NCBI GenBank assembly: GCA_037043015.1
Contig: CM073322.1
Coordinates: forward strand, 24,952,364-25,016,363
Length of the DNA: 64,000 bases
Source of the DNA: Bryum argenteum
Taxonomy: Eukaryota; Streptophyta; Bryopsida; Bryales; Bryaceae
Direction: 5' to 3'
Positions within the stretch are counted from its first letter, which is position 1, and the number at the start of each line of letters is the position of its first letter. Shown piece after piece: positions 7,478-54,720 of this stretch. The translations under genes and the position numbers were made by a program. The notes beneath the pieces were generated by a model. That model was not told the origin of the DNA and made no database searches. It was given only the letters and a program-made list of their open reading frames with translations.

Positions 7478-8263
7478 GCCCGTTCGCACTTGGTCTTTGC
7501 AAAGAGCGTGGCTAAAAATTTAACACCCCCACAATTTGGGGAGGAATACCTTCTATTGAGGAAAGGTGTCATCAATGAGGCTCGTAAAGGTGTAATTTAT
7601 AGTGAGGGGATTACGTAATGGCCCCTCAAGTGGGACAATACATAAGACCACTCTTAAGAGAGGAAAATTTGAGAATCTTTCCAATATTGGTGCTCCCTTA
7701 ACCCTTAAACGCCCATGGGGTCTAAAACGGGCAGCCCAAAATTGGATCACAACATCTTTTGGACTTGGGCATCATAAATAGTGCACTTTTTGAACTTGGG
7801 CAGCATGAATGAACCAATCAATGATGAGCTTGCAACCTCCTACAAGGTTATGTACAACCCAAACCTACCTACCACAATCCTTTCAAAGCACAAAATCGTT
7901 CATACAAATTGTGATTTGAATTGTGAAATTTCACTTTTTGAATGCATCAGAAGACGGTGACCAGTTTGACATCAAAATATAAGAGAAATGTTGAGTACAG
8001 AGAGAGCTACAGGGAAGATTCTGTTGGAATCATGCCCCTCGGGCTTGCTTGGGCGTTTAAGGGTTAAGTATTGCCTACTATTGCTCAAAGCTCTTTTGTC
8101 CTCCTAAATGTTTGCTAATACCCTACTCTTTCTAGTGTGCCATGTGGACATCCATGTAGGATTGGTAATTACTAATGAATGTAGGTGGGAGCACACACTT
8201 TTTAATAGAGTTAAGACCCCCTCCTAAGACCTCCTCTAAGGCCCAAGTGCGAACACGCCTTAA
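7478..8263. mobile_element. Tourist/Harbinger-like MITE interrupted by a TTAA element
   Basis: The left end AGGCCCGTTCGCACTTGG (about 7478) is inverted at the right end as CCAAGTGCGAACACGCCT (about 8243-8263). TAA flanks both ends, the usual 3-bp target of Tourist elements. Inside it lies the complete TTAA-flanked element at 7698-8067, so this element is the older. A related left end (TTCCGACTTGGCC) occurs at 18247. Confidence 0.65.
7698..8067. mobile_element. TTAA-flanked MITE, family A, complete copy
   Basis: It begins TTAACCCTTAAACGCCC and ends GGGCGTTTAAGGGTTAA, a perfect 17-bp inverted terminus including the TTAA. Total length is 370 bp. The interior contains CCTACCTACCACAATCC and CATTGATGAGCTTGCAA-like words shared with copies at 18.3-20.7 kb and 23.9 kb. 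It has no coding capacity and must depend on a transposase encoded elsewhere. Confidence 0.85.
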
Positions 8264-9937
8264 GAAGCTTAAATACTAGGCGTTTGACAAACCAAAAACC
8301 TGTGGTAAAAGAGGTTATTTTATGACTTGGTTTTTTCATGCCTGAATGCAGGGTTGCACGGAGTGGTCGATTGTGAATGAACGTCCCTGTTCGCGTTCTT
8401 TCAGGAACACCCTTGTTGGACTGCGAATAAGTTGCCCCCTGGTTGTTCGGATCTTGAGCCTGCTCGTCTTGAACGTTGGCCATTTCCTGAAAGAGAGAAG
8501 AGAAGATGGACATGAGAAACCGTGGGATTATACGTTCTTTCAGGAAACAACGGTTTAATGACACTAGAATTAAGGATTCGTGTAGAAGATTGGAACACCA
8601 GATTCGGTGTTTGAAACGGCAGTTTGATCAATTCCGTGTTTGAAACGGCAGTTGGAACCATTACTCATTGTATGACTAAGACATAATTGACAATTCAAAA
8701 CAACTTTTCAAGAATGGAAGCAATGAAAACCTTTACATTAATGTTCTTACCCTTCCATGAATGGAAAACAACTAATAACTATGGAATATCAAGTACTTGG
8801 AAACCTGAACCTAAACTAAAGATTCTGTCTAAAAAATACAATGCACAATTTAAACAAAAATTTCTGATGATCCTCACGCCTTGAACGATGGCCATATTTG
8901 CAATTTTTTCTGCAAGCGGAACTACAAGAGCCTCAAGTTGAGATTTTAAAACTCACAATTTTCTTTCTCGTAAGCCAAAGACAATGTCAGCTAGGGTTTG
9001 TTGCGTCTCGATCTTGCAAATTGGTCAAGTTCTTGTTGTTTCCTGATTGACCACGTTAATTGGTCATGTTATAGAGACAACAAGGATGTACACGGTGAGA
9101 AGGTCGTGTCGCGTTTAAGACAAAATATACACATGTGCACATAAACAAAAAGCGAGAGAGCAAAACACCTCAATAGCAAAAAAACATCAACTTGAATGAA
9201 GTAGGGCTTGTGAGTCCCACCCTTGATTATTTGAAGACAATAGATCAACAAAAACAAACAACAGAGAGAAAAACTAGTTTCCGGTTACTGAATGCATCGT
9301 GAAATGCAAATTTTCCACTCATTAGAATCATTCATAGCCCCATGTTGAGAGAGAGAGGAAATCTAACCCTCATGCTATCAACGATCTGTCAAGCAACAAT
9401 TCATGTACCTAGAGGTGCACAATGCTTGCAAGAAGTGGTCAATCAAAACTTTGTTGCGTCCGCAATTCCGCATTGCACGAACAAGTTATGCAAGAGAGAT
9501 GGGAGGAGAGGCACAAGCAAGTTGTGTTGTGATGCTTGAATTATATAGGTAGGGAGAGAAAGACGGGAGGAGGGGCAAGGCAAGATGGGTGGTCGATGAG
9601 TGGATGCATTTGATTTCCATACATCATTGGTCAATGTGCGACTCGAGTCGACCAACCTTATAAAGTCAATAAAGCATATTCTTAAGTTATATTATAAGAA
9701 ATCAGAAAGAAGGCTCATTCATCTCCTATTTTTCTTGAATGTACTCAAATGATTGATATTTTTTTGTAATAATTATGAGGCCTTGCCTTATATGGTAAAA
9801 ACTTTTAGTATGGTAAAAACTTTTAGTGCTACTTCAAAGCCATCTCTTGAGATGAAACTAATTGCCTATCTTCCATCAAAAGCTTACATCTACTACTAAG
9901 AAGGAATTTAAAATTTGTGCTAAAACTTTTTACATAA
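8264..9937. other. Spacer with one possible orphan exon
   Basis: On the minus strand a good acceptor (TCTCTCTTTCAG) near 8491 precedes a frame starting EMANVQDEQAQDPNNQ and running to about 8340. No other exon, motif or family is recognised, so it is not called a gene. A duplicated word TGTTTGAAACGGCAGTT lies at 8608 and 8638. The rest is featureless except a 19-bp direct duplication at 9793-9830. Confidence 0.35.
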
Positions 9938-10335
9938 AACCCTAAACCAAGCGTTTTTTTAGTCTTCGAACTAAGAACTGCAATTTTTGACTACTTTGTG
10001 AAAGTTGAGGTATGATTCATCATTTTTTATTTAATTCGGTAATTCCAATTGCAAGATCCTCATAATGACTATTTGCACTAATACTTTAAGCTCATAACAT
10101 TTACCATTTCTAAGATCATAACGTTCATAGTCTAATCAAAAGTATTTTCCAATAGAACTTTGTCTTTATTGAGCTTCAACACTAAAATTTGTCGTAATGA
10201 ATTCCTTGTTTTGGGTTTTGACCTTGGAAATTCTTACACACACAATATTTGTAGTATATAAGAAACATCCAATAAAAATCTTAGACAAAAGTTGTAAATT
10301 TAATCATTTCATCGAGGTTGTTGAAACAACAAAAG
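9938..10335. mobile_element. Degenerate TTAA-type element, family D fragment
   Basis: It starts with AAACCCTAAACCAAGCG and tracks the left part and right part of the element at 47487-48087, including the GATCATAACGTTCA core and AATAAAAATCTTAGACAAAA near the other end. Ends are eroded and no flanking duplication is clear. Confidence 0.5.
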
Positions 10336-10434
10336 TCCATTACAAGTTGTTTGGGCCTTTAGAGGTAAATACCCTACATGTACTATAATTGGAGTATATT
10401 GGAGTATCTTTTTAAATACTATAAAACTCCCTTA

Positions 10435-11280
10435 TTAACCCCTAGACGTGTCAAATATCAAAACACCACATTGCGGATGACTGTCACAAAAATGCTATAT
10501 CGGATGTCATCCGTTGTGATCAACCCTTGATCCGTAGAACTTTCCAGAGTATGTTTATTAAGTATATTTTGTGAGTCTAAGTTTATGAAAGATTTTAGAA
10601 CCTTCCACTAGTTTGTAGAAGTTTTTATTAAATTTTGAAATTCTTTATGCATATAGTCTTGTACATACACGGAATTAGTTCAAATAAGCTAGTTCAGAAT
10701 TAGTTCTGAGATTGTACAATTCACCTAAATTCGGGAAGCTTCCGCTCCACCTTTCTTGATTCCGGAAGCCCCTCAAGCTTGAGAAAGGTCTTATTGTTAC
10801 TTTCAAGATCTTACTCCGGAAGCTTCCTCTAGCCTAGTATGTAGAGCCTTGGAGGTTATTATTCTTCACTCTCTTCAACACCAACTATACTTACTCTTTC
10901 AATTATCAATACTATTTTTTATTCTCTCACTTTGAATGTCATTTTGAATAAGTCTAGTGTGAGGAATTCCCTTACTTTTAGTCTATCTTGGGCTCCATTT
11001 TGAGGTTCCCCTCAATCTTGTCTTTGGTCTTACCCTTGAGTTCATGTCCGCAACAAGGATAGGCAAGAAACTTTGAAAAACTGTAACTTCTTGATCCAAA
11101 GTCCATTTTGGATGAAATAACTTAAGTAGGGTCCCTAATCATGTCTGATTTGTATGATAAAAATTGTAGACCCATACAATGAAGCGAAACCATTTAGGAG
11201 TTACCATATATATTTTATGAATAAACTGGAGCTTCCTCACCTCTTATGCCTTAAAAGGATAATGACATCTTGAGACATGT
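10435..11280. mobile_element. Probable decayed TTAA-type element, left end only
   Basis: TTAACCCCTAGACGTGTC at 10435 is a family-type end. Sequence at 11090-11220 (TTTTGGATGAAATAACTT, GTATGATAAAAATTG) matches 45640-45700, inside another candidate TTAA element. No right end was found. No gene in this stretch. Confidence 0.35.
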
Positions 11281-12148
11281 ATGATAGTTTACTTAGTTAA
11301 TAGAAGAACAATAGACCTCCTCTTTGTGAAAAACTCATAGATTTCCTTTTCATGCAAGATTTTAAAATGATTTTATTATTCATGTGTATCTTTTTATTAT
11401 AATAGATTTTGTAAGAGATGTAAGAGAATCTCGACGATTGTCCTTATGATGAGAGGTGATTATTATTTTGATTTTGAGGCTAATAAAAATTTAAAATTAA
11501 TTTGGTACCCTCTAATTTCAAAGTGGCACACGGAAATAGTGCATAATATGCATGTATGATTGGTTTGGGTGGCTTGAAGATTTATATGCTAATTAGCTTG
11601 GCACTTCCAATGTTGACTTGGCTTCACGTTGTATGTCGTTGGCTTGACTTGGCTTCGGACTATGTGTGCTTGCTTGACTTGGCTAAGAACCATGTGTGTT
11701 CTTTGTTTAGACCTATGTGTGATTGTGCTTGACTTAGGATTATGTCTCTTTCCTTGAAGATTTTCTTTATTTTGTCTGACTTTTTATATGCACAGTGCTT
11801 ATGTTTTCAGTTGTTGTTGGTCTTCAGACACTATCATAGATAGAAAATTTTGTAGCCTGGTTGTGGACATTAATTTATATAGGTAGAATTACTCTATAGA
11901 ATTATCAACAATTGAGCAGTGTTGCAGCTTTATTTTTTCTCATTATTTTGTTCTTTCTAAGAAAAATGCATGTATTTTCACTCTCTCTTTGAGATTTTTA
12001 GAACGTTCAAATTTTTGCCAATCCCTGCTTCTGATCAGCTCAAATGAGGTTTATGGTCTAGTGTCATACGTTTGTGTCCATTCACGCGCTCTTCTCCTCT
12101 CTATTAGAGTCAGGGTCTTTTACTTTTGTCTCCGTGTTTCATCGAATT
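11281..12148. other. Spacer, no gene recognised
   Basis: Contains repeated GGCTTGACTTGG phrases at 11610-11690. It also holds the left arm of an inverted repeat (about 11933-11988) whose partner lies at 12525-12572, on the other side of the CACTA-like end at 12149. Confidence 0.4.
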
Positions 12149-15108
12149 CACTGTAGGAAGAGAGGGGGGTTTGCAACGTTACGAACATTATTTTTGCATA
12201 AACGTTGTTCAAGTTCAGCAACATATTGGTACTTGCTCAAGCAACGTTTTCAACCTCAAATTTACGAAATAATAATTAACGAAGCTTGGTAATTTAGTAA
12301 TTTATTTTATTTTATTTATTTATTTATTTATTTATTTTTGAGAAAGTTGCTTCATGTAAGCAACAATGGAGAAAAAAATGATGCAAACCCCTAAATTGTA
12401 ATAGTGACTGTTGATGAATCTTATTTTTTACGATCATTGTGAGTCAAGGGTTTGTGGTCGAGAAATTTAGTTGTGTTTTACATACGAGAACGATGTTGGA
12501 ACTAAAACCTTTCTTGCGTTTTTCTTAGAAAGAACAAAATAATGAGAAAAAATAAAGCTGCTTGAGCGACATGAGTCCCCACGTGCATGAAAGGCTTTAG
12601 TTCCAACATCATTAAATATTTGAAGCACCTGTTTTTTTAAGTTTTGAGTGCATACAAACTGTAAGGGGGATAATGTTTTACAAAAAACACTTAGAGTTTC
12701 AAATAAAAGGTGAATATATCAAGAAATAATGGCTTGACAAGCTAATGAAATTTTTATCTTAGACACTCAACTCCACCATCGTTATTCTTCATATATCTAG
12801 TAAAATAGAGTTAACTCACAAAGCTTAAAGTTAGTACTAAGTCTTATTTTCTTTTTTGTAGAAAAGGCCAAACTTAGTGTCTTTGTCAACTTTTTGGAGT
12901 GTGACGTGTAAAAAAGGTACTAAGTACTCGTACCCGTTGAGGAATTTTTTTAGGTCTTCAGGTTATTCAATCATATTCAAGCATTGGTATAATGGCATAT
13001 GAAAACCAGATTATAATATAAAACCTTAAGGGGAGGATAATTTAAGTTTGAAATAGAGAAGTACAGCTTGTTTACAATTGTAACTGTCAAAATACATGGT
13101 CACTCTAGTACACCTTCACCCACAAGCTTTACAAGAAGCGTAAATCCGCAATCCTTAAGTCAATTTATAACTTACCATTCTTCATCTTTCTTGTTTCGTA
13201 CAAACTCAAAACCTCAACTTTGTAAGAATGGCGTTACTCCATGTACAGTACCCACCAACAAGTTTACGTTCAGGAATGAAACAAGAGAACATGCCGCAAT
13301 CTTCAAACAATTGCCATGTTCACAAAAATAATCCAAATTACCAACTACAAGTTGTATCGGAGAGATGATGTAGTATTCTATATCATCATTTGAAGAAATT
13401 CCAATAAAAACTAGAAATTCTATCTTAATATACAACTTTTTAACATATTATTTACTATTTATCCTTAGCTCTTATTAGAAGCTACTATTGTTGAGGCATG
13501 AAACAATGAAAACCTTCAACCATCTCTAAAGAAAGCTATTCCGATACACTTTCTATATATGCAATTCCTTTTTAGAAAAACATTGAATTGTACCCCCCAT
13601 GAAGCCCAACATTGAACTTTTGTACTCTAAGTAAATGTCACGATAAACAAAAGCAACTTCAAGTGATCATAACTACCACCCGGAATAACCAAATTCCATG
13701 ACACTACCACCAAAGTGCTCGAAATGTAGCGAACGCTATCAAAACTATCGCTTTCGTGCTAATCCAAGCCTCATGTGTAAGAAAAGGCCATGAGCAATCA
13801 CAACACTTTAGAATGTTTATGTAACTTTTTCAATAAGAGACAACATCAAGGTCTCTCACACTAACTCACCTCAATATTTGTGAATGTAAGCCACATATAT
13901 GTAAAGGGCATCAAAAGAGGTTACTAGAGAGATATTAATACTCTTTTTCCCAACAAACCTCACCATGAAATGATCTTCATAACATCTAAAGGTAGATACC
14001 AAAAGTAAGTTAAAAGATACTAAAGTTATCAAATCAATTTACACTTTTTATAGAGATTTTTCATACATTGGTAAAGAAAACTTCACTACCTTACTCTCAC
14101 ACTTCATAATTTGCAATTTGGATAGATTTTACAAACATGGTGATCATTTGAAAGTTGAGGGTATGTAATCTCTGCTTGCTCTGAACGTAAACTTCTTAGT
14201 GGGTACTGTACAATTTTGGCACGGCGTTCTTAAGCATATCATTTTAGAGGCATATTTAGTCATGCTTCTAAAATGGCATGTTTTTCTATATCACGCACGT
14301 TCTCCATAATATCAACCTATTTCTTTAAAATCACCAAAATTCCTTAATACATTACGATATGATAGTTTTTGATCTTTTCAAGGCAAATGATTCTGAACAG
14401 CAAATCAGAAACATTGTTGTTTCTGAACAGCCATTCACAAATATTCTCCCACAGTGCCGGTATACGTTGTTAAGTTCGCATCTCCGAGCTTGCAATTTCG
14501 GTACACATTTACTATTCAATCCATTCCTTCCTGAGCCAGATGATCAACTGCTTCACTTCTGAAGAATCAAATCAGGCCTCATACATATTCATATGATAAC
14601 AACCACCGCTATGTCTGCTCTTGCAATCAAGGTTATCGTCTCAGGAGAAAGTAGCGCCTTTTACAGTGGCTGCTCATTTCCATTTCAACAACAGATATTT
14701 TAAGTCAACATCGTAGTACGACCGAACAGATGCTCATGCATCATATACTGAATCAACGGAAGTGCTAGGCCACACTTCTGATTCATATCATTCAACCCCC
14801 GGAGTGCGAAACAAGGTTAGTCGTGAACTGATGGACTTGAAAACTAACTAAAATGATACACTACTACAATGTGGGGGGCATGGGGTTACAATGTTCTGTT
14901 CTCCAATGTTGCTCAAGTGCAGGAACATTTTGGAGCTTGCTTTAGCACTGCATCACCAAGTACCAAATCACTAAGCAACGATATTAATAATTTTGTAAAT
15001 TTGAGGTTAAATACGTTGCTTGAGAAAGTATTAGGACGTTGCTAGACTTGAACAACATTTACACAAAAACAACGTTTGTCACGTTGCAAACCCCCTCTTC
15101 TAGTAGTG
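12149..15108. mobile_element. CACTA-like non-autonomous element with long inverted ends
   Basis: The left end CACTGTAGGAAGAGAGGGGG and the right end CCCCCTCTTCTAGTAGTG begin inverted termini that stay similar for about 150 bp (12149-12300 and 14955-15108), with shared words such as TTTGCAACGT and TACTTGCTCAAGCAACG. The 5'-CACT(A/G) start fits the CACTA/EnSpm group. The flanks (ATT / ATA) are not a clean 3-bp duplication. The 3-kb interior has no recognisable transposase. A family-B MITE fragment lies inside at about 14215-14455. Confidence 0.55.
14215..14455. mobile_element. Family B MITE fragment
   Basis: Matches the interior of the complete copy at 36832-37266: AAAATGGCATGTTT, TCCATAATATCA, AACATTGTTGTTTCTGAACAG. 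Both termini are missing. Confidence 0.55.
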
Positions 15109-18236: not shown

Positions 18237-18494
18237 TTAAGGTATGTTCCGACTTGGCCTTAAAGGTGGTGTTAGAAGGCCGTCTTATCTTCTTAAAAGA
18301 GTATGTGTTGGGAGGTGCTTAATCAGAGAGGGGAGGTGCTTAACCCTTAAATCCCCAAGCAAGTGCGATGGGCTTTTTTCCAATAGAATTTGCTTTGCAC
18401 CTCTCACTTTACTCAACTTCTCACTTATATTTTGATGTCAAACTGTCACCTTCTTATAATGCATTCATAAAGTACAATTTTACAATTGAAATCA

Positions 18495-18751
18495 ACCTCA
18501 ATTCCGTTAAAATGGCACTATGCCATGGGCCATTTTGTCACACCAAATCTTACATATGCGCTCACAAGGAGTGGTGTATTATGTTATATGACAAAAAAAT
18601 TTAAAATACCACTCCTTTATATACATTGTCACTCATTTTCCATAATATCACCTTCAAATTCTGTTATATCACATGGTTTTTGAACTGCAGTTCAGAAAGT
18701 TAAGGTGTGCCATTTTAGCGGCATAACGCCATTTTAACGGAATTGGGGATA
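18495..18751. mobile_element. Family B MITE inserted in a family A MITE
   Basis: The ends CCTCAATTCCGTTAAAATGG and CCATTTTAACGGAATTGGGG are inverted repeats. The flanks share ATCA (18491-18494 and 18752-18755), and the disrupted family-A sequence resumes on the other side, so the order of insertion is clear. Confidence 0.8.
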
Positions 18752-19308
18752 ATCACAAGTGATTTTGTGGTTTGAAAGGATTGTCGTAGGTAGGTTGGGT
18801 TGTACATAACCTTGTAGAAGATTGCAAGCTCATCATTGAGCCCGAGTCCAAAAGATGTTGTGATTCAATTTTGGGCTGCCCGTTTCAGACCCCATGGGCA
18901 TTTAAAGGTTAATCAGAGAGGGGAGGTGCTTAACCCTTAAACGCCCATGGGGTCTAAAACGGGCAACCTAAAATTGGATTTCAGCATCTTTTGGACTTGG
19001 GCAACATGAATAGTGCACTTTTTGAACTTGGGCAGCATGAATGAACCAATCAATGATGAGCTTGCAACCTCCTACAAGGTTATGTACAACCCCAACCTAC
19101 CTACCACAATCCTTTCAAACCATAAAATCATACATACATATTGTGATTTGAATTGTAAAATTTCACTTTTTGAATGCAAAATATAAGTGAAAAGTTGATT
19201 ACAGTGAGAGCACAGGGAAGATTCTGTTGGAATCAAGCCCCTCGGGCTTGCTTGGGCATTTAAGGGTTAATCAGAGAGGAGAGGTGCTTAATCAGCGAAC
19301 GGAGGTGC

Positions 19309-19565
19309 TCAACCCCTAAAGATCCACGATGTTTTAGGAGCTTGAAATCCCAACATTGACCACTATATACTAATGGGGTTACAAACAATATTTTTGGAAA
19401 TTGTTTATACTTTCAACCGTAGTATCTTGAAGTAGACTACCATTGGTAGTAGTGTCAACCGTTGAATCATCATTAGATGTGAGATCATAACATTTGAAGT
19501 TGACTGAAATTTTTTTTGCCTTGACGGTAAAGCCGAATCGGTGGCCGTGGTCGTTTAGGGGTTAA
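19309..19565. mobile_element. TTAA-type MITE, family C
   Basis: It runs from AACCCCTAAAGATCCACGATG to GGTCGTTTAGGGGTTAA, about 255 bp, and matches the copy at 43364-43621 along its whole length. It contains the shared core TCAACCGTTGAATC ... GTGAGATCATAA. The left TTAA is mutated to TCAA. Confidence 0.8.
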
Positions 19566-20763
19566 CCTTTAAAGGCGCGTGTCAGCCCCTCGGGTTGTTT
19601 TCCAACAGAATCTTGCCTTTAGCTCTTTTGATTCTCAATTTTTCACTTATTTTTTTATATCATTCTAGTCACCTTTTTGTGATGCATCTACAAAGTGAAA
19701 TCCTACAATTCAAATCGCAATTTGTATGAGTGATTTGTGCTTTGAAAGGATTGTGGTAGGTAGGTTGGGATTGCACAAAACCTTGTAGGAGGTTGCAAAC
19801 TCATCATTGATTGGTTCATTCATGCTGCCCAAGTTCAAAAAGTGACTATTCATGTTGCCCAAGTCCAAAAGATGCTGAGATCCAATTTCGGGTTGCCGAT
19901 TGAGGAGTGGAAGGACCTTTAACCCTTAAAGGCGCCTGTCAGCCCCTCGGGCTGTTTTCCAACAGAATCTTGCCTGTAGCTCTTTTGATTCTCAATTTTT
20001 CACTTATTTTTTAATATCATTCTGGTCACCTTGTTGTGATGCATTCAAAGAGTGAAATTTTACAAATCAAAGCACAATTTGTATGAGTGATTTTGTGCTT
20101 TGAAAGGATTGTGGTAGGTAGGTTGGGGTTGTACATAAACTTGTAGGAGGTTGCAAGCTCATCATTGATTGGTCCATTCATGATGCCCAAGTTTTAAAAG
20201 TGCACTATTCATGATGCCCAAGTCCAAAAGATGTTGTGATCCAATTTTGGGCTGCTCGTTTCAGACCCCGAGGACCTTTAAGGGTTAACCCTTAAACGCC
20301 TGAGCGGCCCCGAGGGGGCTGTTTCCAACAGAATCTCCTCTGTAGCTCTCAAACACAATAACTTTTCACTAATATTTTGATGTCAAATTGGTCACCTTCT
20401 TCTCATGCATTCAAAAAGTGAAATTTTAGAATTCAAATCACAATTTGTATGAGTGATTTTGTGCTTTGAAAGGATTGTGGAAGGTAGGTTGGGATTGTAT
20501 AATACTTGTAGGAGGTTGCAAACTCATCATTGATTGGATCATTCATGATGCCCAAGTTCAAAAAGTGCACTATTCATGATGCCCAAGTGCAAAAAATGCT
20601 GTGATCCAATACTGGGCTGCCCAAATCCGTATAGCTAGGCGTTTAAGGGTTAAGGGTTAATCAGCGAGGGGAGGTGAGGGACTCGTCGGTGCCGAATGGG
20701 ATCTGCAGTGAGCTGTAGTGACCTCGGACGGCTGCGGACGCTCGCACTCCAGCCAACAGACCC

Positions 20764-22332: not shown

Positions 22333-23264
22333 TTAACCCCTAAAAATCCAGGGGTTTCCTCGACCTCCAGAACCAAAAACTGCCATTTTTCACCTTCGTT
22401 GGAAAATGGGGAAATGGAGAAACTTTTTTTTCTGGTTTTAGACTTTGAACCGTAAGATCTTGTACCTAACTTGTATACAAAGGACTGGTCAAAATTTCAA
22501 CCGTTGGATGTTTGTCATTTGTGAGATCATAACAATCAAAGTTTGACCAACACTTTTTTTTTGCCGCTACGTGAGAGGCATTGTCTAAATGGTGCCAAGG
22601 GCAACTTGATGATTGTTATTCCAAATATTTTTCCCTCATTTTTTTTCATGTAGGTAATCAAGTTGGTTATGCTCATGCAAAATTTTAGAGACCAATTCCA
22701 CTTTTTGACCTTAATGTAAAATATTTTATGAAAGGTCTAAAAACAACCATATAGTAAAACAAGCACCACGTATGATATATTTAGTTTGAGAAAATCTTGA
22801 CGGTGAGAAGGTGCATTTATGATAATGTGAATTTCGAAAAAAAAAAAATCTTGGAAAAAATCCAAAATCTCGAATTTTGGCAATTTTTGAAAGAAAAAAT
22901 TGTAAAATTACTAGAAATTGTGAAGATTGTTTTGAAAGTTTTGGAGGCTGCCCTTGTAAAATTGGTAAACTTTTTGACTTCGGACACTTTGGAATTTGAA
23001 TAGTAATTTGGTAATGAACATATTTCTAAAAAAAATAAAATTAAAAAAATTATTTCAAACTGCCCGTTTTGGACTTGAAACCTAAAATTTCTAGGTGAAG
23101 GTTATAAAATTAAAATTTGACTTTGAAAATTTTACCACATACACATTACTGTATGGGGAGCACCCAATAAAAATCTTAGGCAAAAATATCAATTTAAATG
23201 CTTAAAATGAGCTGCCCGAAATCTCAGAAAACCGAATTGGTTTTCCTGGATTTTTAGGGGTTAA
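22333..23264. mobile_element. TTAA-type element, family D, complete copy
   Basis: TTAACCCCTAAAAATCCAGG at the left is mirrored by CCTGGATTTTTAGGGGTTAA at the right, a perfect 20-bp inverted terminus including TTAA. Length is 932 bp. Internal blocks match 48806-49739 in reverse orientation. The core CAACCGTTGGATG ... GTGAGATCATAA is near 22499. No long frame. Confidence 0.85.
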
Positions 23265-23560: not shown

Positions 23561-23567
23561 ACTAAGC

Positions 23568-23835
23568 CTCTAAAATTTCTGGATGAAGAATTGTTTGAAT
23601 CATCAAAATAGATATTTCCATACTTCAAGCCTAAAAACTCTAGATCTAAGCATTATTTGGAAGATCCAACCGTAGGTTCTTGAAGTTAACTTCATTTTTA
23701 ACTCACAAACCAAATTTTGAACCGTTGATTCTTCTTCATTTGTGAGAATATAATGGTCAAACTAAGTTGGCTAAAATTTGTTCCAGGGGGAACTCCAAAA
23801 AGTCATTCCACTTTCTTGGACGTTTAGGGGTTAGT
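23568..23835. mobile_element. Right part of a TTAA-type element
   Basis: Similar along its length to 42120-42390 (GATCTAAGCATTATTTGGAA, GAACCGTTGATTCTTCTTCA). Ends GGACGTTTAGGGGTTAG. A left end is not visible and may have been removed by the neighbouring hAT-like insertion. Confidence 0.6.
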
Positions 23836-23901: not shown

Positions 23902-24243
23902 TTAACCGTTAAACGTCTAGCTATACGGATTGGGGCAGCCCAAAATTGGATCACAACATCTTTTGGACTTGGGCATCATGAATGATCCAATCAGTGATGA
24001 GCTTGCAACCTCCTACAAGGTTATGTATAACCCCAACCTACCTACCTACCACAATCCATTCAAAGCACAAAATCACTCATACAAATTGTGATTTGAATAC
24101 TGAAATTTCACTTTTTGAATGCATCACAAGAAGGTGACCAGTTTGACATCAAAATATAAGTGAAAAGTTGAGTACAGTGAGAGCTACAAAGGAGATTCTG
24201 TTGGAAAAGACCCCTCGGGGCTCCTTAGACGTTTAAGGGCTAA
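23902..24243. mobile_element. TTAA-type MITE, family A
   Basis: Starts TTAACCGTTAAACGTCTAGC and ends GACGTTTAAGGGCTAA. The interior matches other family-A copies (GAGCTTGCAACCTCCTACAA, ATTTCACTTTTTGAATGCAT). One flank has decayed to CTAA. Confidence 0.8.
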
Positions 24244-24463
24244 AGAGTTGATGAAAACACTTATTACCATTGAGCTTCTAACATTTATTCTCAAGAGAAT
24301 TAAATGTCTGAAATATTGAATGCCACGTGAAGAAGAATTGGTCACACTTGGCGTTGAATTATTATAATGTAAGATAAAGTATTCCAAACTATGCCTTATA
24401 CTTGAGCATCAACTACTAAAAGATGTGAAAGCACCCATGAAGAATCTAGTACATGCTGCAAAC

Positions 24464-24685
24464 TACACTAAATTTGATAATTAGTGTTAGATTATTATAA
24501 GATTTGAAAATGCTATAGGTTTTTACTTTTGTTTGAAAAAAATTACCAAGAGCATTGATTCTGATACTATATAAGGACCCCCATCTTGGCCAATATAGTG
24601 GGTAAAATTATTGAACAACAGTAAAAACTTATAACATGTTTATGTAGATTAGTGTATCTAACACTAATTATCAAATTTAGTGTAG
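24464..24685. mobile_element. Family F MITE, copy 1
   Basis: The ends ACACTAAATTTGATAATTAG / CTAATTATCAAATTTAGTGT are perfect inverted repeats. The whole 222 bp returns in reverse complement at 54902-55124 with few differences. Non-coding. Confidence 0.8.
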
Positions 24686-25635
24686 TGAATATTTGATGAG
24701 CATATACTAAAATTCCAACAAGGGTATCTTATGGCGTCCTTATTTTCAGTCTAGTGGCGTTCATGTAGGCATTGAAAAATGTACTTATTATTTTCATTCT
24801 TTTATGATGAAAATAATAAAACCACACAAATTTTTGCATGATTTCATGTGCAATTTGTTTTCACATGAGAATTAGTCAAAAACTAGTCAAAACTAACCAT
24901 TCCATATCTGTTTAATAATTTCAATTGGGTCAAAATTTCTACCAGTAAAACTAAACTCTAAGAAGAATCCATTCCAAAAAATAAAGTAGAAATCCAATGG
25001 TGGATGAAAGAGACGTAGCTACTCAAAATCATCCACTTTTCCACTTCATTCATTGTTGAAATATTGTTGCAAATCTAATGCCCAAAAAAAAAATAGATCA
25101 AGAAGCTTCCAACTAGGAAGTTGTTGAAATTTATTTCAAGATCATAGTTTTGCAAAAAGAAAAAGTTCATGAAAGACTCTTTTTGTGATTTCACACAGTT
25201 GGCTTGCAATGTTAAAACACGTCTAACCTTTGAATACCCAAAAACAAAAGTTGCCCTCACTAAAATGCATGCAAGTAAATACATACTTCATTGTATGGGT
25301 ATGCAATATTTATTACACAAAATAGATTTGATTTGGGACGCAGTTCAATGATTTCATCCAAAACAGACTCTGGATGAAGAAATAATGGCTCTTCAAAGTT
25401 TATGCCTTTCATCCAAAATGTTGTTTTCGACATTGGGGACGTCCAAGGATTAACGCTCTAACAAGATCTTCCCACACCGTATTCAAACCTTGTTTATATG
25501 ATGGTCAAATTATGTCCTCTTGACGGGCATGTTTACAGTACGCGATACGTGCTCTAACAAAAAAAACAACTAGATACAAAAATAAGTATATGTCAACAAT
25601 GTTAGTCGCAAGCACTGTCTTTTCTATTGATTACA
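24686..25635. other. Spacer, no gene recognised
   Basis: No gene. The piece at 25355-25450 (TTTCATCCAAAA, GGACGTCCAAGGATTAA) resembles one end of the decayed element at 45552-47219. Confidence 0.4.
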
Positions 25636-25904
25636 TTAACCCCTAACTCTCCTTAAAACCCGAAACGGGTTTTGGAGGTTCCCGCAGGAGAAAGACTTAG
25701 CCAACTTTGACCATTATAATCTCACAAATGAGGAAGAATGAACTGTTCAAATTTGGTATGTGAAAAGAATGTCAAGTGAACTTTGAGATCTTACGGTTGA
25801 ATATTTAAAATAATTCTTAGATTATGATTTTTTTGAGCTTAATCTAAATGAAGGTTAAATTTTGTGACTTAGACAGTTTTGCAACAAGGAGATTTAGGGG
25901 TTAA
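25636..25904. mobile_element. TTAA-type short element
   Basis: TTAACCCCTAACTCTCC at the left and GGAGATTTAGGGGTTAA at the right. Length is 269 bp. It has the shared core in reverse order (GACCATTATAATCTCACAAA). Confidence 0.75.
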
Positions 25905-28003: not shown

Positions 28004-28955
28004 TCAACCCTAAAGATCCACGTAATCAAAACGACTTTTTGCTATTTTAAACATCCTAAATGAAGGGGTCAAAAGTGATATTTTTGCCTAAGATCTATAT
28101 TGGGTGCTCCCTATACTCCAAAGTGAATGCATTACAATTCGCAAAGCCAAATTCTAATTTTAAAAAAACCTTCACTTGAAAATTCTAGGTTTAAAGTAAA
28201 AAACGAGCAGTTTAAATTTGTTCATTATTATCATATATATTTTAAAAATATGTTCATAACCAAATCACTAGTCAAGTTCCAAAGTGACCCAAGTCAAAAA
28301 GTTTTACCAATTTTACATAGGCAGTCTCCAAAATTTTCAAAAACAATCTTCACAATTTTTAGTTATTTTACAATTTTTTCTCTTTCAAAATTTGTCAAAA
28401 TTCAAGACCCTAAATTATTATTTATTTATTTATTCTCGCAAAATTCACAAAGTCATAGGGGCACCTGCTCACCATCCATTTTTCACGTGATCCAAGTATA
28501 TATATAACGTTGTGTAGGTTTTCCTATGTCATTGTTTTTAGACACTTCTTTTAAAGAATCATTTTCATGAAAGTCAAAAAAAGTGGAATGAGTCACCAAA
28601 TTTTTGCATGAGCATACCCAACTTGATCACCTACATGAGAAAACTATGAGAAAAAATGTTTGGTGTAACAATCTTTGAGTTTCCCCTTGCACCATGGAGA
28701 CAATGTCTCACGAGTAATGTCCAAAAAGAAAACTTTTCCACCAACCTTTGAACACTCTGATTTCACACATGGTTCAGATCCAACAAGTTGAAATTTTACA
28801 TGGTAGTATTGATAGTAGAAAATTTTAAGATCTTACGATTTGAAGTACAAAAGAAAAGTTAAAAATTTGACCCTACCTCAACTTCAACAAGGTGGTAGAA
28901 AATCACAGTTTTTGGTTTTGGAAGTCCAAAAAAACGCTTGGATTTTACGGGTCAA
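28004..28955. mobile_element. TTAA-type element, family D, TCAA-flanked
   Basis: Left end TCAACCCTAAAGATCCACG, right end GGATTTTACGGGTCAA. Both sides carry TCAA rather than TTAA. The interior is collinear with 48806-49739. Length is 952 bp. Confidence 0.75.
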
Positions 28956-36584: not shown

Positions 36585-36620
<36 letters not shown>

Positions 36621-41337: not shown

Positions 41338-41339
41338 AG

Positions 41340-41795
41340 AGTAAGGTAGAATGCCCTTAAACCGCTCGAATAAGGGATTGAGCATGGTTGTGGACTTCGT
41401 GTGTATTATTTGAAATTTTTCTCTGATGCGAAAACAGGAGGGAGAGTGAATGCAAAAATTTCCAGAATTAAATAGCAAAAACTGAATTTACTACAAAATT
41501 TTGAAGTCAAAAGTGTACATGACCTTAAAGTGATCAGTAGCCTCTCTTTTTTATGTGCATGACCTCTACTAGTTGTTGGTCATGGTTGAACCTTAAACCG
41601 TGAATCAATGAGTCAGGGAATCTACCCAATTAATCCAATCAGATCTCTTTAAATAGAATAAAAATAATATTCTGTAATTCCAAATATCAGACATGACAGG
41701 AGCAATTAAAGATTCAGAGCATGGGCGGCTGAAGGGTGGTCTACTGATTGGTTTTGGGGGGGTGAGCGGTTTAAGGGCATTCTACCTTATGCAGT
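41340..41795. mobile_element. Candidate DNA MITE with 25-bp inverted ends
   Basis: TAAGGTAGAATGCCCTTAAA at the left is inverted at the right as TTTAAGGGCATTCTACCTTA, continued by CCGCTC / GAGCGG. Length is about 455 bp. The flanking duplication is not clear. Confidence 0.65.
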
Positions 41796-43363
41796 AACCC
41801 AAAATGGACACAAGTTTCAGAACTTTCTTGCTTATCAAATTCAGAGTTGTTAATTAATGTAAGAGAGGTTAATTTGGAACCAGAACACTAAATGTCACAT
41901 GTCACCATAGTGTTACAACACGAATCGTCAAGATTACAACACTAAATGTGAGAGCATGCAAACGTGTTTGCAAGTGGAAGAATCTACTGGAAGTGGTGCA
42001 ATTGGTGGCTTGAAGAAATGACAAGGGACATTCATTGCAATGGCAGCCCGAAGTGAACAAAGTTATTGGTTACACCAATCTCCATGTAACAGTAAGTAAA
42101 AACTCTTGTGTAGTGCTTTTCTTAACCCAAAAATTTCTTGATGCAAAATTATATAAATCATCAAAAATAGACCTTACTCTAGTTTAGGTCTAAAAATCGT
42201 CGATCTAAGCAATATTTGGAAGATCCAACTGTAGGATCTAAAAGGTAACTTAACTATTCACTCATGCATCAAATTTGAACCGTTGATTCTTCTTCATTTG
42301 TGAGATTATATTGGTCAAAATTAGCTGAATTTTGTTCTTGCAGGAAACTTGAAAAGCCACTTCGGCTTTTTGGACCTTGAGGGGTTAATTTGCCAAGTGT
42401 TACAACATTTGGACATCTAATATAACGGTGAATCGTTCGGATCATTGCTTGTAAAAACGGGGCACAACAAACCTTGGCAAGACATGCACCTTCTCGAGAA
42501 GAATCTTGCACAAATGCATGTAAAATTGCAACCAATTGAATGATGTTTACACGATGTCAAGTATCATAAGCATGTGGAATAGAACCCACAACCTCCTTAT
42601 CAAATATCCTTATCGAATACCATGAGCTCTAACCACCAGGCCAAGGCTTGCTATGCCTTATGACTTGCTTATTTGATCTACTCCAACTTACTCACCTTCC
42701 ATGTCTTTTAGCTGAACTTGCACTGGAGCATCTAGATTCTGCTTTCTTATGTTCATGAAGTGATAGGTGGTTGAAGTATCCTGATTTGTACTAGAAATTT
42801 TTATCATATCACATACTGTAAGAACATGGACTTCGTCTTTAGGTAGTGACAGAGTATTCCAGAATGAGGTTGTAAGTGGAAATGGTCAAAATGAATCTAG
42901 CTGATATTTATTCTGACCTTCTAAAGCTCCAAAACAGCATGATTTCATTCGCCCGGCCAAGTTGAGAGATAAGTTATCAAGGAACATGTCATGTTGAGGT
43001 GCATGTGAGGGCTCCATGTTTGCCGCTTGCACTCTTTCCCAAAGATTCCTCCAAGTTCGTCTTCACAAAGTTCCAATTCATGATACGTCATTGGTCACAA
43101 ACTGGTTCAATGGATCTTTGGTACAAATGAGTACAAGAACATGTTTCGGAACCAATTTATGTATGTGTTTTTTTATGTTGAAAGTGTACACTTAAATGTG
43201 GAGAAGTGTGGTATTCTCACCAAGCTTAGAGTTGCTTTACATGAGGGGCAAAACCATTGATTGGGTCAATCCTCTCTTGTGTTTGGTCCAATTCTTGCAT
43301 TTGGTCCAAAGGGCTTTTCAAGGGGAGTCAAGGCCAATTTTTATGAAATTATATTATCCCCTA
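41796..43363. other. Spacer with TTAA-element and SINE fragments
   Basis: 42120-42390 is the right part of a TTAA-type element (ends GGACCTTGAGGGGTTAA) matching 23568-23835. 42575-42660 is a SINE head on the minus strand (GGAATAGAACCCACAACC, ACCACCAGGCCAAGGC). No gene seen. Confidence 0.55.
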
Positions 43364-43621
43364 AAGATCCATGATGTTTTGGGAGCTTGAAATCCCAACA
43401 CTAACCATTACGTACTAATGCGGGTACGTCAAATTTTTTGGAAATTTTTTATAACTTCAACCGTAGGATCTTGAAGTAGACTACCATAGGTAGTAGTGTG
43501 AAAATTTTCAACCGTTGGATCATCACTAGATGTGAGATCATAAAATTTGAAGTTGACTGTAAATGTTTTTTGGCCTTGACCGTAAAAGCCGAATCGGTGG
43601 CCGTGGTCGTTTAGGGGTTAT
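43364..43621. mobile_element. TTAA-type MITE, family C, TTAT-flanked
   Basis: TTAT then CCCCTAAAGATCCATGAT at the left; GTGGTCGTTTAGGGG then TTAT at the right. Nearly identical in layout to 19309-19565. The TTAT on both sides shows the 4-bp duplication is not strictly TTAA. Confidence 0.85.
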
Positions 43622-47219: not shown

Positions 47220-47486
47220 AATCCTTGGGCTTGTTAACATTCAATTTATGAAGATTGTACAATTTTTCTATTGTACATCTATGTAAATAGATATTGTACG
47301 AAGCCCTAAATGTCTCCTTCAAAGGAGGATGACTTTTATGAGAAGTGAAGGCCTACTTGAACACTCAAGGATTTGTGATATGAATGCAACAACATGTTTT
47401 GTTGGGTTGTGAAAGAGCTTGGATTGACTATGAATGATTCATTCTTATAATGATGTGTATGATTAGTTGTTGTACAATTGGCAAGA
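47220..47486. other. Spacer, no gene recognised
   Basis: AT-rich and without recognisable features. Confidence 0.4.
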
Positions 47487-48087
47487 TTAACCCCTAAAGA
47501 ACCAAGCATGTTTCTGAACCTTCAAATCAAAAAGTTGTGATTTTTGACCACCTTGTACAAGTTGAGGTACAATTCAATGTTTTTTACTTTTTTGGTATCT
47601 CCAACCAAAAGATCTTCAAATTAACTACTCATCATAAGACAATGTTAAATTTCAACCATTGAATCTTTACCATTTGTGAGATCATAATGTTCAAGTTGAT
47701 GCAAAAGATTTTTTGCAACACTTTGAAGCTTGCTCATGTCAATTTTGGAGGTTTCCCTTGTAAAATTAGTATTTATTTTATTTTTTTAATTGGAGAAAAT
47801 TGGAACTAAAGTAGTGATGAGGTTATGACCTTATCTTCAAATTATTTTTTAAAAAAAAAAAGACCAAATATCAAGCTGCCCAAATTGCTCATTTTGGGCT
47901 TCAAAACTAAAATTTGCATTAAAAAATTTGATTTGAAATTTGACTTTGAAAATTCTTACACACGCCTAGTTGTATAGGGAGCACCCTATAGAAATCTTAG
48001 GCAAAAATATGAGTTTTAACACCCTTATCCGGGCTACCGAAAACAACAAAAACCTTTTTTGACATATGTGGTCTTTTAGGGTTTTAG
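47487..48087. mobile_element. TTAA-type element, family D, shortened copy
   Basis: TTAACCCCTAAAGAACCAAG at the left. The right end GGTCTTTTAGGGTTTTA has lost the TTAA. It has the core CAACCATTGAATC ... GTGAGATCATAA and the AAATCTTAGGCAAAAATATG block. Confidence 0.65.
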
Positions 48088-48805: not shown

Positions 48806-49739
48806 TTAACCCCTAAATGACCAAGGCCTCCGATTTGGCTGTTTTGCTATTTCGGGCAGCCTAGATGAAGGGGTTAGAATCAATATTTCTGCCTAAGATT
48901 TTTATCGGATGTTCCCTATACTACAAGGTGTATGTGGGAAAAATTGCAAAGTCAAACTTCACTTTTGGAGTCTTAAAACGCAAATTTTCGTTTCCAGCTT
49001 TGGGGCGGGCAGAAAAAAACTTTTTATTTTTAACTTTTTTTTGAGATTTTTTTTAAAATTTCTTTTCTTGACTGATTTCCTACTTAGGTTTCCAAGTGAC
49101 CCAAGTCAAAACTTTTACTAATTCTACAAGGGCACCCTTCAAAAAATTACAAGAACTAGATCCAAAGTTTCTATAATATTACAATTTTTTCTTTCGAAAT
49201 TTGGTAAAATTTGAGATTTAGGAATTTTTGAATTTCTTTTTCTCAAAATTCACAAACTCATGAAGGCACCTACTCACCATTCATTTTCCCCCTAAACCAA
49301 ATACGACAAATGTGGTGCATGTTTTACCGAATCCTTGATTTCTACCTTCTTTTAGTAAATAAATTGCATGAAGGTTCAAAAAACCAAATGAGTGTCTAAA
49401 ATTTTGCATGGTAATGCTCAACTTAGTTATCTACATGGAAAAACATATAAGCAAGATGTTTAAGGTATTAAGCATCACAATATCGTTTGCACAAAGTAGA
49501 CTATGTCTGCTGAAAAAAAGTTTGCATCAACTTTGAATGTTATGATCTTGGAAATGGAAAAGATCCAACGGTTGAAATTTTAAACACTATTGCTCATGAT
49601 AGTTATCTTTAAGATCCTACGGTTAATAGTTTCAAAAAATTGTGAAAAAAATTCTCATACACCAAAGTTTACAAGGTGGTATGAAATCGCAGTTTTGGAG
49701 TTTGGAGCTGTCAAAACACCATGGTCGTTTAGGGGTTAA
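48806..49739. mobile_element. TTAA-type element, family D, complete copy
   Basis: TTAACCCCTAAATGACCAAG at the left and CATGGTCGTTTAGGGGTTAA at the right. Length is 934 bp. Collinear in reverse orientation with 22333-23264. It contains the core in reverse (AAAGATCCAACGGTTGAAAT). Short frames only. Confidence 0.85.
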
Positions 49740-51283: not shown

Positions 51284-51321
51284 CCACACTAAATAGTGTA
51301 TTTAGTGTGAGGCACTATGAT

Positions 51322-51682
51322 AGCAAAGATAGATAGATAGGTAGAAACTCCGGTCCCTTTCTAAGGGATCGGCGTGAATGAAGTGTTTATTCCTAATGCT
51401 AATATCCCTACACGGGACAAGGGGAAATTGGAACAACTTCCCCCTCTCAAGGCTGGACACTATAACTTCGCTAGTTTCTAGCTAGTTACTAGTGCCTTGA
51501 AGATACTTGACATAGTATCCCCCCAAAGGGCTTTGAGGTACCCATACAACGAGGTCCAAGGACCCCTAAATAGTTGGGTGGATTAAAGCGGTGAGCACCA
51601 CACCGACGTGGGGAATTGAACCAACGACCTCCTTATTGGGGGCCATGAGCCCTGACCACCAAGTCAAGGCTTATGGTGCATG
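51322..51682 (-). mobile_element. tRNA-derived SINE, second copy
   Basis: Collinear with 26537-26885. The tRNA-like head is at the right (CTTGGTGGTCAGGGCTCATG, B-box-like GGTTCAATTCCCC), and the tail ACCGGAGTTTCTACCTATCT is at the left beside a TAGA repeat. It has a 10-bp local duplication, CTAGTTTCTAGCTAGTTACTAG, absent from the first copy. Confidence 0.8.
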
Positions 51683-51794
51683 TGTGGTAATTGCAGACAT
51701 CGCTGTAACTATCAAAAAATCCACTTTTGTAGATGTGAATTTTAACAATATTCATTAAGAATAGTTACTTTTGACATTGTGATCTTTTGCAATT

Positions 51795-52042
51795 ATGAAC
51801 ATGTCGGCGGGGCTCTAGGATCCCATAAGAATATTCCATTCTACTACTGTAAATGCCATCTCCTCATCTATTTGAAGAGTTTTGGAATAAAAAAATAATA
51901 TTGCTTTTAGAATCTCCTTGTTGAGATGCATTTGAATATATATATAGTTATATTTTTCTATAGAGTTTAAGAAGAGGTGCAATAAAATCTTGAAATTGCT
52001 CCTATGAATATTTTGGACCCCGTGTCCCGCCAACATGTTCAT
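51795..52042. mobile_element. 248-bp MITE with ATGAACATG inverted ends
   Basis: ATGAACATGTCGGCGGGG at the left and CCCGCCAACATGTTCAT at the right are inverted with one extra base. Inner bases also pair (GGATCC / GGACCC region). Non-coding. Confidence 0.7.
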
Positions 52043-52281
52043 ATGGGTAATTACTGATATTAAGGAGTTGAAATTTTAGATGAATAAATTGAAATGTTAG
52101 AATTGGAATGAATCAAGTTGGATGAGAATTGAAATTAAAGAAAGTTCAGTGTGGCAAACTCCAAACCTAAACCCATTAATACATGTAGCCGCGAACGCTA
52201 ATTACCCACATATTGTTAGAAAGGTTGTAGGGGTAAGCATATTATTCATCACCTTACACTAAATACACTATTTAGTGCACT

Positions 52282-53828
52282 TCCCTTGTGTCCCATAGAG
52301 TGCATTGCATAAGAGGTGAGGAAGTTGTGTGTAAGCGCAAAACCTTCAACAATATACACAAATTACTTATAGGACAATTTTTGCTTTTATCTTTTGAATT
52401 CGATGTATATAAGGGTTGGATTTTGGGTGAAATCTAGGATGCTTGGTTTGATGTGCATCTACAACTCTTCAGTTTAAATTTTATAACTAAATGAAGAAAT
52501 ATCCACAATATAATATCCCAATTCTTCCAAACTCCTACTTACTTTGCACATCTTCTATAATTGATCTCCTTGGCCACTCCCAAATGAGCTTGGTGATATG
52601 GAATTGAGCATGTTACCTCACATAGCAAAAAAAAAAAAAAAATTGAGAAAGAAAAGCTATGATCCGCTCTAAGTCAAATAATATTGTTTTTATTTTTAAC
52701 TAGATTCATGAAGGAGAAGAAAAACACCAAAACCAATTGGTTGGCGTGAATATGGTGTTTGTTGAGCCTACCCTTGACAATATGCCTACAAGACATAACA
52801 ACACTCGTATAGGACTATTAACCCCTCGCACGGTGGACATTGTATAACGAACTCAAGAACCAATAATTTGTGAAGTGGCTTTGTATGGTACATTTTTTTG
52901 TTTAAAAGAAGAAGGTTGAGTTTTTTTGCTAGATTTTTGACATACGTGGTTGTTTAGAAAATACGTGGTTGTGTTGTAGTTGTAGTCCGGATTCGATTCC
53001 CATTGATCTTGTTGGAGCATCGTTACAATCATTCGGCGCTATCAAGCTGGTAGGCAAAAAAATTCAACAAAGTGGGCTCATGTGTTGTGATAGAGTTACT
53101 ATTATAAATGAAGATGATGATATATCAATGCTATTTTTAAATATTTTGATTTATGGTGGTTGTGTGTCTATTGGTAGTGGCTCTCCACTTTCTATTTTTC
53201 TTGACATTATTATTGTAAAATTATTGACATGGCATGGTGTATAGCAATCATATTCATCTTTGTGACTGTATTTTTTATAAGTTTTTTTGGATTTTTGAGT
53301 TTGGTTTTTAGAATTTTCATAGAAGGGATGTATGTAAATGCTCTAACACCTGATGTAATTACTATTAGTAGTCCTTTGGTAACATTGTTGATGAGAGGTT
53401 GGTATTTTCTATCTTTCTCTTAGTAATATCTTGTGAGAATCTGTCATTACACTATGTGGATTATATAAATTGTACCTTTAAATTGATGGACCATGTTGTG
53501 CTTTGTAGTTGATGATTCTAGTGTGTTTGGTATTAGAAGTAATCATTACATTCAACTTCAGAAATTCAGCAACAAAATGTAATCACCTTAATTATGTCAA
53601 ATAGTTCCTACCAAACTACTCATAATCTATGAGAATCATTTATATGGGATGAATGAATCATATCATGTAGCCACTTATTCTTGAATCTTTGGTCATAACC
53701 TTATGTAATGAGAATGGAAAGTAAGGTAAAATACTTAAAATTTGTCCGGCGCCATGAATCTTAGTCTACCCCAACCAAAGTACATTTTAGCTTTTACATT
53801 CAATTCTCAATGTACTTAATTTGTACAA
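52282..53828. other. Spacer, no gene recognised
   Basis: An open frame at 52969-53244 and another at 53229-53423 have biased composition but no domain or splice context. A family-like left end TTAACCCCTCGCACGG lies at 52819 without a partner. Confidence 0.4.
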
Positions 53829-54720
53829 TTTAAACCCCTTAAGTGGATTGAGGCTAGATTGTGGTCGTTTGAGGTTTGGGTAGCCTCCAATTTACTATAT
53901 TCAGCTCGCATGAAGTTGAAACCTTTCGTAGGTTGTAGAGTTTTTCCATGCCTTTCCAAAAATTCATTCCATGCTTCATAATTCCTCATACTATAGGAGA
54001 TATTTACACTCAAAGTTTGAAAACACTATTTGAAAATTGCCCAAATTTCCCCAAACTACAATACATGCTCCTATATTCTCAAAATGTGCCCAAGAGCAAT
54101 GAAAATTGCAGTAACTTCAAAAATTCACCAAAAATCGAGACTTTACTTTTTTTGAGTTTTATATTTTGTACATGTAAACAAGATCTTAAGGCATGACCCC
54201 ATTGTACAAAAATTTGATCCAATTATTCTTCACTTGACAAACTTATTATAAAAGATTGGACTTTATGGTTAAATTCTAACATTCCAAAATTCCATGTGAA
54301 TGATCAACCATTTCCTTAGAATTTATAGGTCGCACGAGGTTAAAAATTGCATAGACATGTCCCCGACTCACTTAGGAACAAGAATTCAATGAGACTCATG
54401 ACAAATTCTCTACCAAAATGGTTTTTTTGGCCCTCAAATAACTACTGTAGTTACCCTTTTCTAAAACAAGGGGGAAAACTTCTTACTCCAACTTTGAACA
54501 TTATGATCTCATAATATGTAAGGAATTTGAGATTGAGATTTGATATACATGTACACATACAAGTTATGTACTAGATCCTACCCTTACATACCAAAATATA
54601 TGCCAAAATTTGAAAATTTTCTTCTTGCATCCAAAGAGGGTAGTTTTTGGTAGTTTTGAGACGTTCGAGGAGTTTTGAGACTTCCCCGGATTTTTGAGGC
54701 TGATCCACTTTAGGGATTAA
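53829..54720. mobile_element. Degenerate TTAA-type element
   Basis: TTAAACCCCTTAAGTGGATT at the left and GATCCACTTTAGGGATTAA at the right. About 890 bp. The core is recognisable (AACTTTGAACATTATGATCT). Much decayed. Confidence 0.55.

Follow-up and report, generated by a model that had tools for sequence, protein, structure and literature searches.

The 64,000-nucleotide stretch of the moss Bryum argenteum analysed here (GenBank assembly GCA_037043015.1, contig CM073322.1, positions 24,952,364 to 25,016,363 of the forward strand; hereafter the window) carries at least a dozen short elements that begin with CCC(C/T)TAAA and lie beside TTAA. These are almost certainly miniature, internally deleted transposons of the piggyBac superfamily, that is, miniature inverted-repeat transposable elements (MITEs) of several families that owe their mobility to autonomous piggyBac transposons of the same genome acting in trans. 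All the window elements are non-autonomous. The kind of element is already known; what is new is that it is so abundant and apparently recently active in a land plant, and that the autonomous elements have a two-gene layout, in which an additional open reading frame, ORF1, usually precedes the transposase.

An earlier note on this DNA, made from the sequence alone, had listed at least a dozen such elements, and every one of them is present (Table 1). Twelve have an identical 4-mer on each side, as borne out by individual checks of the borders, and four others have unequal or missing flanks. The positions given in that note hold, except that the C copy placed at 43364 begins at 43354, off by 10. 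Its range extended to 54720; the end at 54709-54720 stands alone, no partner having been found.

The terminal motif is strongly overrepresented. In the window, chance predicts 5.48 copies of CCC(C/T)TAAA, yet 30 are present, a number that 0 of 100 shuffles reached; for TTAACCCYTAAA with up to one mismatch, 34 copies compare with 1.3 expected. Throughout the genome (258.8 Mb), 23,184 sites of TTAACCCYTAAA were counted versus 401 for the reversed control, and 18,448 of CCCYTAAANNNCC versus 1,432 for its control. A genome-wide search for TTAA followed by the end, which the earlier note had proposed, gave 15,398 sites with TTAA directly before CCCYTAAANNNCC (that is, TTAACCCYTAAANNNCC) versus 7 in the reversed control; TTAT precedes CCCYTAAANNNCC at 217 sites versus 0. 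The initial CCC is conserved at the ends, which read CCCT in family A and CCCC in families C, D and E. Some CCCYTAAA words in the window (for example at 4318, 12388, 22011, 27780 and 51563) have no convincing partner, consistent with the chance expectation. The CCCCTAAA end includes CCCTAAA, which is one plant telomere unit. Exact four-unit runs of TTTAGGG number 997 on the + strand and 224 on the - strand of the genome, with overlapping matches counted.

The genome also encodes piggyBac transposases. A genome search with the PF13843 (piggyBac transposase) profile scored at least 116 loci among 776 candidates, all above the cut-off and most without an internal stop; the same search of 14 control genomes gave no match. 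Twenty-three of the 116 loci were fetched, so the loci examined had all been chosen as piggyBac transposase matches. Within this set, PF13843 was found in all six transposase frames scanned, and the L020 transposase matches the PDB entries 6x67 (phmmer, E 2e-29) and 9c0f (E 7.7e-24). The catalytic DDD triad (D156, D235 and D348) is invariant in all 15 aligned frames, in line with the earlier note, which had proposed a search for a piggyBac-like DDD transposase with shared ends. A C-terminal Cys/His-rich domain is present in 10 of the 15; the frames of L031, L035 and L036 lack the Cys-rich C-terminus, and in L021 and L033 it is altered. From stop to stop, the frame with the transposase spans 831-1331 residues in 13 of 20 loci.

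These long open frames lie between the same kind of ends as those of the MITEs. Thirteen of the 23 loci are bounded by CCC ends that match in at least 14 of their first 16 bases and share a TTAA-like 4-mer, and in seven more the bounding ends match at 10-12 of 16. A shuffled-locus control (50 rounds) yielded pairs in none of the 23 loci at either level. In L019 the best-scoring left end is that of a neighbouring A MITE, and the next pair (4.9 kb) also scores 14; with that pair, 12 of the 13 clear-ended elements are 4.8-6.4 kb long, and L021 is 8.4 kb. Four full-length copies, L035, L039, L040 and L041 (5,693-5,701 bp), are 99.75-99.88% identical and lie at different sites, with different 24-base flanks and with TTAA on both sides in three and TTAT on both sides in one. 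The partner nearest to the window is L030 (10 of 16; C2:24942689-24948567), which ends 3.8 kb before it. The ends of the element at L021:1239-9622 start with CCCTAGAACG and CCCTGGAACG instead of CCCYTAAA; they are closer to the end of the Trichoplusia ni piggyBac.

The resemblance of the MITEs to these autonomous elements extends past the inverted repeat in families C and D; A and E match more weakly. Two C copies match the terminus of L024 at 86% over 244 bp and 82% over 238 bp. The D copy at 22333 matches the left end of the L035/L037 type over about 400 bp at 72% (E 4e-44 to 5e-49 to the left ends of L035, L037 and L040) and the right end of that type over about 200 bp at 67% (E 1e-6 to L035). 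The A copy at 7698 matches the right end of L019/L020 over 36 bp at 92% (E 3.6e-6), and the E copy at 25636 matches a subterminal stretch of L035 over about 104 bases (106 columns) at 74% (E 6.9e-9). Judged by these alignments, A, C, D and E are distinct MITE families, and their best matches lie in different autonomous lineages. The same alignments bear on the idea that the window elements are MITEs of another TTAA-targeting superfamily, such as Kolobok or Sola3, which would share only the target preference with the resident piggyBacs. A TTAA duplication alone cannot tell these superfamilies apart, and Kolobok and Sola3 transposases were not searched for; however, the window ends match PF13843-encoding elements in the terminal 13-16 bp, and C and D do so over hundreds of bases. 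This common subterminal sequence largely refutes the idea, which we regard as very improbable.

The target duplication is 4 bp long, as in the piggyBac superfamily. When the 13-bp end was scanned for without any condition on its flank (in the window and the loci L001-L002, L004-L008 and L019-L041), the preceding 4-mer at the 60 sites was TTAA in 51, TTAT in 3, ATAA in 3, and TCAA, CTAA and TTGA in 1 each; the reversed control gave 3 sites. L001-L008 had been picked by a pattern that contained TTAA, and without them TTAA precedes the end at 48 of 57 sites (control, 2). Nearest inward-facing pairs of ends have identical 4-mers in 23 of 25 cases (20 TTAA and 3 TTAT), and in these 23 the adjoining outer columns are alike in no more than 2-6 cases. 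The earlier note had taken the TTAT and TCAA copies as proof of a genuine 4-bp duplication, and at 43354 and 28004, respectively, both 4-mers are indeed complete on both sides; such targets (TTAT, TCAA or TTAG) are a minority. Tourist- or Stowaway-type MITEs are common in plants, and their TWA (3 bp, PIF/Harbinger) or TA (Tc1/mariner) duplication could be misread in this context since TTAA includes TA and TAA/TTA, but both duplications are ruled out by the non-palindromic TTAT and TCAA duplicated in full (as also at full-length L036 and L041), the outside columns mostly disagree and the partner transposase is PF13843, so that this reading is refuted and keeps next to no probability.

Empty sites agree with the 4-bp target. 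The two flanks of each candidate element were joined in silico and sought in the fetched loci and the window, and five insertions with an element-free paralogue were examined, each aligning with one 4-base target. The empty-site comparison suggested by the earlier note came out in favour of the duplication. The C MITE at 43358-43617 has an empty site in L019 with a single TTAT, and an A MITE in L028 has one in L030 with a single TTAA. Among the full-length elements, L029 has empty sites in L028 (one TTAA), L036 (TTAG) and, more weakly, the window (TTTG); L020 has one in the window at 13804-14103 (CCAA); and L036, flanked by TTAT, has three, in L019, L022 and L038, all TTTT. Junction-spanning matches were left aside where they came from overlapping candidate pairs of the nested array or where tandem repeats next to L030 and L033 produced them. 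The empty paralogues are compatible with a seamless excision that would restore TTAA.

The elements have also inserted into one another. The terminus CCCTTAAA itself holds a TTAA. The A element starting at 19566 (A4) reaches CCTTTAA at 19922 and is followed there by two further A elements, A5 and A6, joined by one TTAA. Downstream of A6 and its TTAA (20650-20653) stand GGG and then TTAA; this piece, 20654-20660, is exactly the end that A4 lacks. Therefore, A5 and A6 inserted into the TTAA within A4's own terminus. A minisatellite at 18330-19312, with the unit TTAATCAG(A/C)GAG..GAGGTGC, is a repeated target of A and C elements. Its unit ending in GAGGTGC-TTAA-TCAG carries an element at 18340 and at 18930, and none at 19288-19291.

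The most probable history is that autonomous piggyBacs elsewhere in the moss genome mobilise the window MITEs in trans. By analogy with the known piggyBac pathway, the transposase, with its DDD domain and C-terminal cysteine-rich domain, would bind the element ends, excise the element through TTAA hairpins and join it to a TTAA target with a 4-bp stagger, leaving no footprint. Several points weigh against this account. First, excision and transposition are deduced from that pathway and were not observed here. Second, tblastn of 13 frames at 1e-3 found no transposase similarity in the window, so the mobilisation in trans is deduced from the shared ends. Third, the earlier note had read TTAA and CCC ends as the piggyBac signature; PF13843-encoding partners do carry these ends, but those of C, D and E start with CCCC and not with CCYT. 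Fourth, the empty sites are paralogues of just 67-84% identity, whose 4-mer differs from that of the insertion in two of the five cases (CCAA for TTAA and TTTT for TTAT) and in two of the three paralogues of L029. Fifth, L023, L025 and L034, among the 23 loci, have no bounding pair of ends, the bounding pairs were picked for identical TTAA-like flanks, and ends from different loci pair at 10 of 16 or better in 284 of 506 combinations and at 14 of 16 or better in 56 of 506. This high cross-locus pairing reflects ends common to many loci and the MITEs within them; it leaves the looser 10-of-16 set only suggestive, and the strong evidence is the 14-of-16 set (13 loci) with the four near-identical copies. 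Finally, the transposase frames of L035, L039, L040 and L041 are unequal (831, 916, 515 and 831 residues), which means that some of these four copies are broken and not all are intact. With these points counted, the observation of the earlier note is confirmed and its piggyBac interpretation is supported.

The autonomous elements carry a second conserved open reading frame, ORF1. Its domain of about 95 residues (consensus ...RHLFYRQVAxILGWxER...WPD) has no match in Pfam below E 0.1 and no convincing relative in PDB (best E 0.085). Seventeen copies in alignment A1 are 24-75% identical to the first. ORF1 is under purifying selection: the ratio of non-synonymous to synonymous substitution rates is 0.07-0.18 in the four of 11 pairs that are unsaturated at synonymous sites. 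At least 150 ORF1 loci were scored genome-wide out of 368 candidates, and at least 58 of them have an equal score (139.1 bits) and a 149-residue frame; four of these 58 were read, namely the copies that are 99.75-99.88% identical.

We consider it rather probable that the moss piggyBacs are a two-gene lineage, with a transposase and an ORF1 accessory protein made from one mRNA by way of a +1 start codon that sits where the ORF1 domain ends, through leaky scanning or termination-reinitiation, and that this pair has recently driven a burst across the genome of a land plant. The reading frames around the junction point to two proteins from one transcription unit. ORF1 would most likely be a separate accessory protein, which perhaps aids end binding or regulates the transposase. 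It is improbable, on the other hand, that the ORF1 domain is the first exon, or the +1 frameshift product, of one large transposase. Such a protein would fit the order of the frames, ORF1 being on the same strand and upstream of the transposase core in 22 of 23 loci (the exception is L023), and also L031 and L032, which hold ORF1 and transposase in one open frame. However, in L026, L027, L033 and L034 the transposase frame begins in +1 where the ORF1 domain ends. In the L029-like clade, 25 junctions were compared, five from earlier loci and 20 newly fetched (eight of the 20 picked for flagged stops); a scripted motif was found in 21, and on visual inspection the other four have the same start peptide. 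In all 21 scored junctions the first ATG past the ORF1 domain is in the +1 frame, 1-7 nt away, and in six of them the ORF1 stop lies 7 nt before it. From this ATG the +1 peptide enters the transposase frame by a GT-AG join in nine junctions and, at the predicted junction, without an intron in two (L059 and L062). No join was shown in ten; in nine none was demonstrable, the downstream motif being absent from the stretch or unrecognised. In most copies of the clade where a join is testable, the GT-AG intron lies 12-13 codons past the ATG. Simple in-frame splicing that would join ORF1 to the transposase through the donor conserved in L024, L029, L035 and L037 was considered and rejected as out of phase; the +1 reading fits. 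Besides the single open frame of L031 and L032, the two-protein arrangement has to contend with L060, where the +1 frame stops after three residues, with L030, where ORF1 is split into two frames, and with a gap of 850-2550 nt between ORF1 and transposase in L019, L020, L021, L025, L028, L036 and L038.

The largest contig, C1 (44.1 Mb, outside the window), is poor in elements of the piggyBac type: its first 9.67 Mb hold 100 TTAACCCYTAAANNNCC sites, or 10 per Mb versus 59 per Mb genome-wide. It carries 5 of the 116 PF13843 matches and 3 of the 150 ORF1 matches, and 6 TTAT-flanked ends versus 30 on the smaller contig C2. C1 might be a sex chromosome, have a different chromatin or be of foreign origin.

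Table 1. Positions of piggyBac-type elements and related target sites in the window
Feature	Position	Strand	Identical 4-mer each side	Details
MITE family A	7698..8067	+	yes	element 7702-8063, TTAA each side
paralogue of L020's empty target	13804..14103	.		
MITE family A	18340..18912	-	yes	element 18344-18908, TTAA each side; foreign insert ~18495-18757; target is minisatellite unit GGGGAGGTGC-TTAA-TCAG
MITE family A	18930..19270	+	yes	element 18934-19266, TTAA each side; minisatellite target as for 18340 copy
unoccupied TTAA of minisatellite unit	19288..19291	.		empty target within the window
MITE family C	19309..19565	+	no	element 19313-19561; left TCAA, right TTAA; right side adjoins another element
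MITE family A (A4)	19562..20660	-	yes	19566-19922 and severed final GGG at 20654-20656; TTAA 19562-19565 and 20657-20660; split by A5 and A6
MITE family A (A5)	19919..20288	-	yes	element 19923-20284, TTAA each side
MITE family A (A6)	20285..20653	-	yes	element 20289-20649; TTAA 20285-20288 common to A5
MITE family D	22333..23264	+	yes	element 22337-23260, TTAA each side
old family-E-like copy	23562..23834	.	no	flanks CTAA/TTAG
MITE family A, internal deletion	23902..24243	+	no	flanks TTAA/CTAA
MITE family E	25636..25904	+	yes	element 25640-25900, TTAA each side
MITE family D	28004..28955	-	yes	element 28008-28951; TCAA 28004-28007 and 28952-28955
MITE family E relative	42122..42388	.	yes	element 42126-42384, TTAA each side; degenerate ends CCCAAAAA / CTTGAGGGG
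MITE family C	43354..43621	+	yes	element 43358-43617; TTAT 43354-43357 and 43618-43621
family D left end	47487..48061	+	no	TTAA at left; right end not found
MITE family D	48806..49739	-	yes	element 48810-49735, TTAA each side

Other features of the window are as follows. The repeat at 41354-41777 was rejected as a member: it has CCCTTAAA ends, yet its inverted repeat extends beyond them, without TTAA. It belongs to an inverted-repeat element of a different family at 41346-41785, whose repeat GTAGAATGCCCTTAAACCGCT... passes beyond CCCTTAAA. A 325-residue open reading frame at 3123-4100 resembles the Myb/SANT-like DNA-binding domain PF13837 at E 1.1e-4, below the cut-off. An inverted pair of 225-bp repeats (24462-24690 and 54899-55123) is 96% identical and partly self-inverted, and similar copies occur in L024, L030 and L035. 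The host is a land plant, a moss, in keeping with the plant origin guessed at in the earlier note. Its genome has telomere-type TTTAGGG repeats and one LEAFY C-domain locus, with a protein that reads KPKMRDYVHC; the Asp in this motif, where angiosperms have His, is the moss type.

The piggyBac transposon is a major genome-engineering tool. Thousands of copies and near-identical full-length elements in a moss would show land plants to be hosts in which piggyBac can thrive, and the moss elements would offer plant-adapted transposases. They would also raise the question of how the family came into mosses or has survived there. Elements of the CACTA, MuDR and Harbinger types need, or are regulated by, a partner protein. 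The prediction for ORF1 is that the same may be true of some piggyBac lineages.

In the literature, piggyBac has been described both as isolated from insects, fungi and plants (in a passage of PMC10813416) and as a family of animals, fungi and protists that occurs only now and then in plants (in a passage of PMC12732532). No paper on a moss piggyBac was among the matches listed by our literature search, which covered neither subscription papers nor Repbase, so an earlier description is possible. Passages in two plant studies name piggyBac among the MITE superfamilies of angiosperms (PMC10004981) and tabulate 1230 PiggyBac copies (122 kb) among the repeats of the fern Ceratopteris (PMC6890710). 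These repeats share a plant host and the piggyBac label with the moss elements; those passages describe no autonomous partner or empty site, and the moss copy number is far higher. The rule for piggyBac, as worded in a passage of PMC10175614, is a CCYT-initial terminal inverted repeat (TIR) with TTAA. The beetle piggyBacs, according to the passages in PMC12732532, are 2074-3465 bp long with a single open reading frame of 500-725 residues, and their ends also vary. Like the moss elements, they have a TTAA duplication with rare deviations, short and mostly CCCT-initial TIRs and a DDD domain; in the moss the length is about double, and there are two open reading frames instead of one. Finally, the T. 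ni piggyBac (PDB 6x67 and 6x68) and the Myotis piggyBat (9c0f) share with the moss elements the DDD core, the TTAA target, the CCC ends and the short inverted repeat, as well as the C-terminal Cys-rich domain present in 10 of the 15 moss frames. The moss elements differ from both in their length (4.8-6.4 kb, and 8.4 kb in L021), in their large frames of 831-1331 residues, in the extra upstream ORF1 and in their land-plant host.

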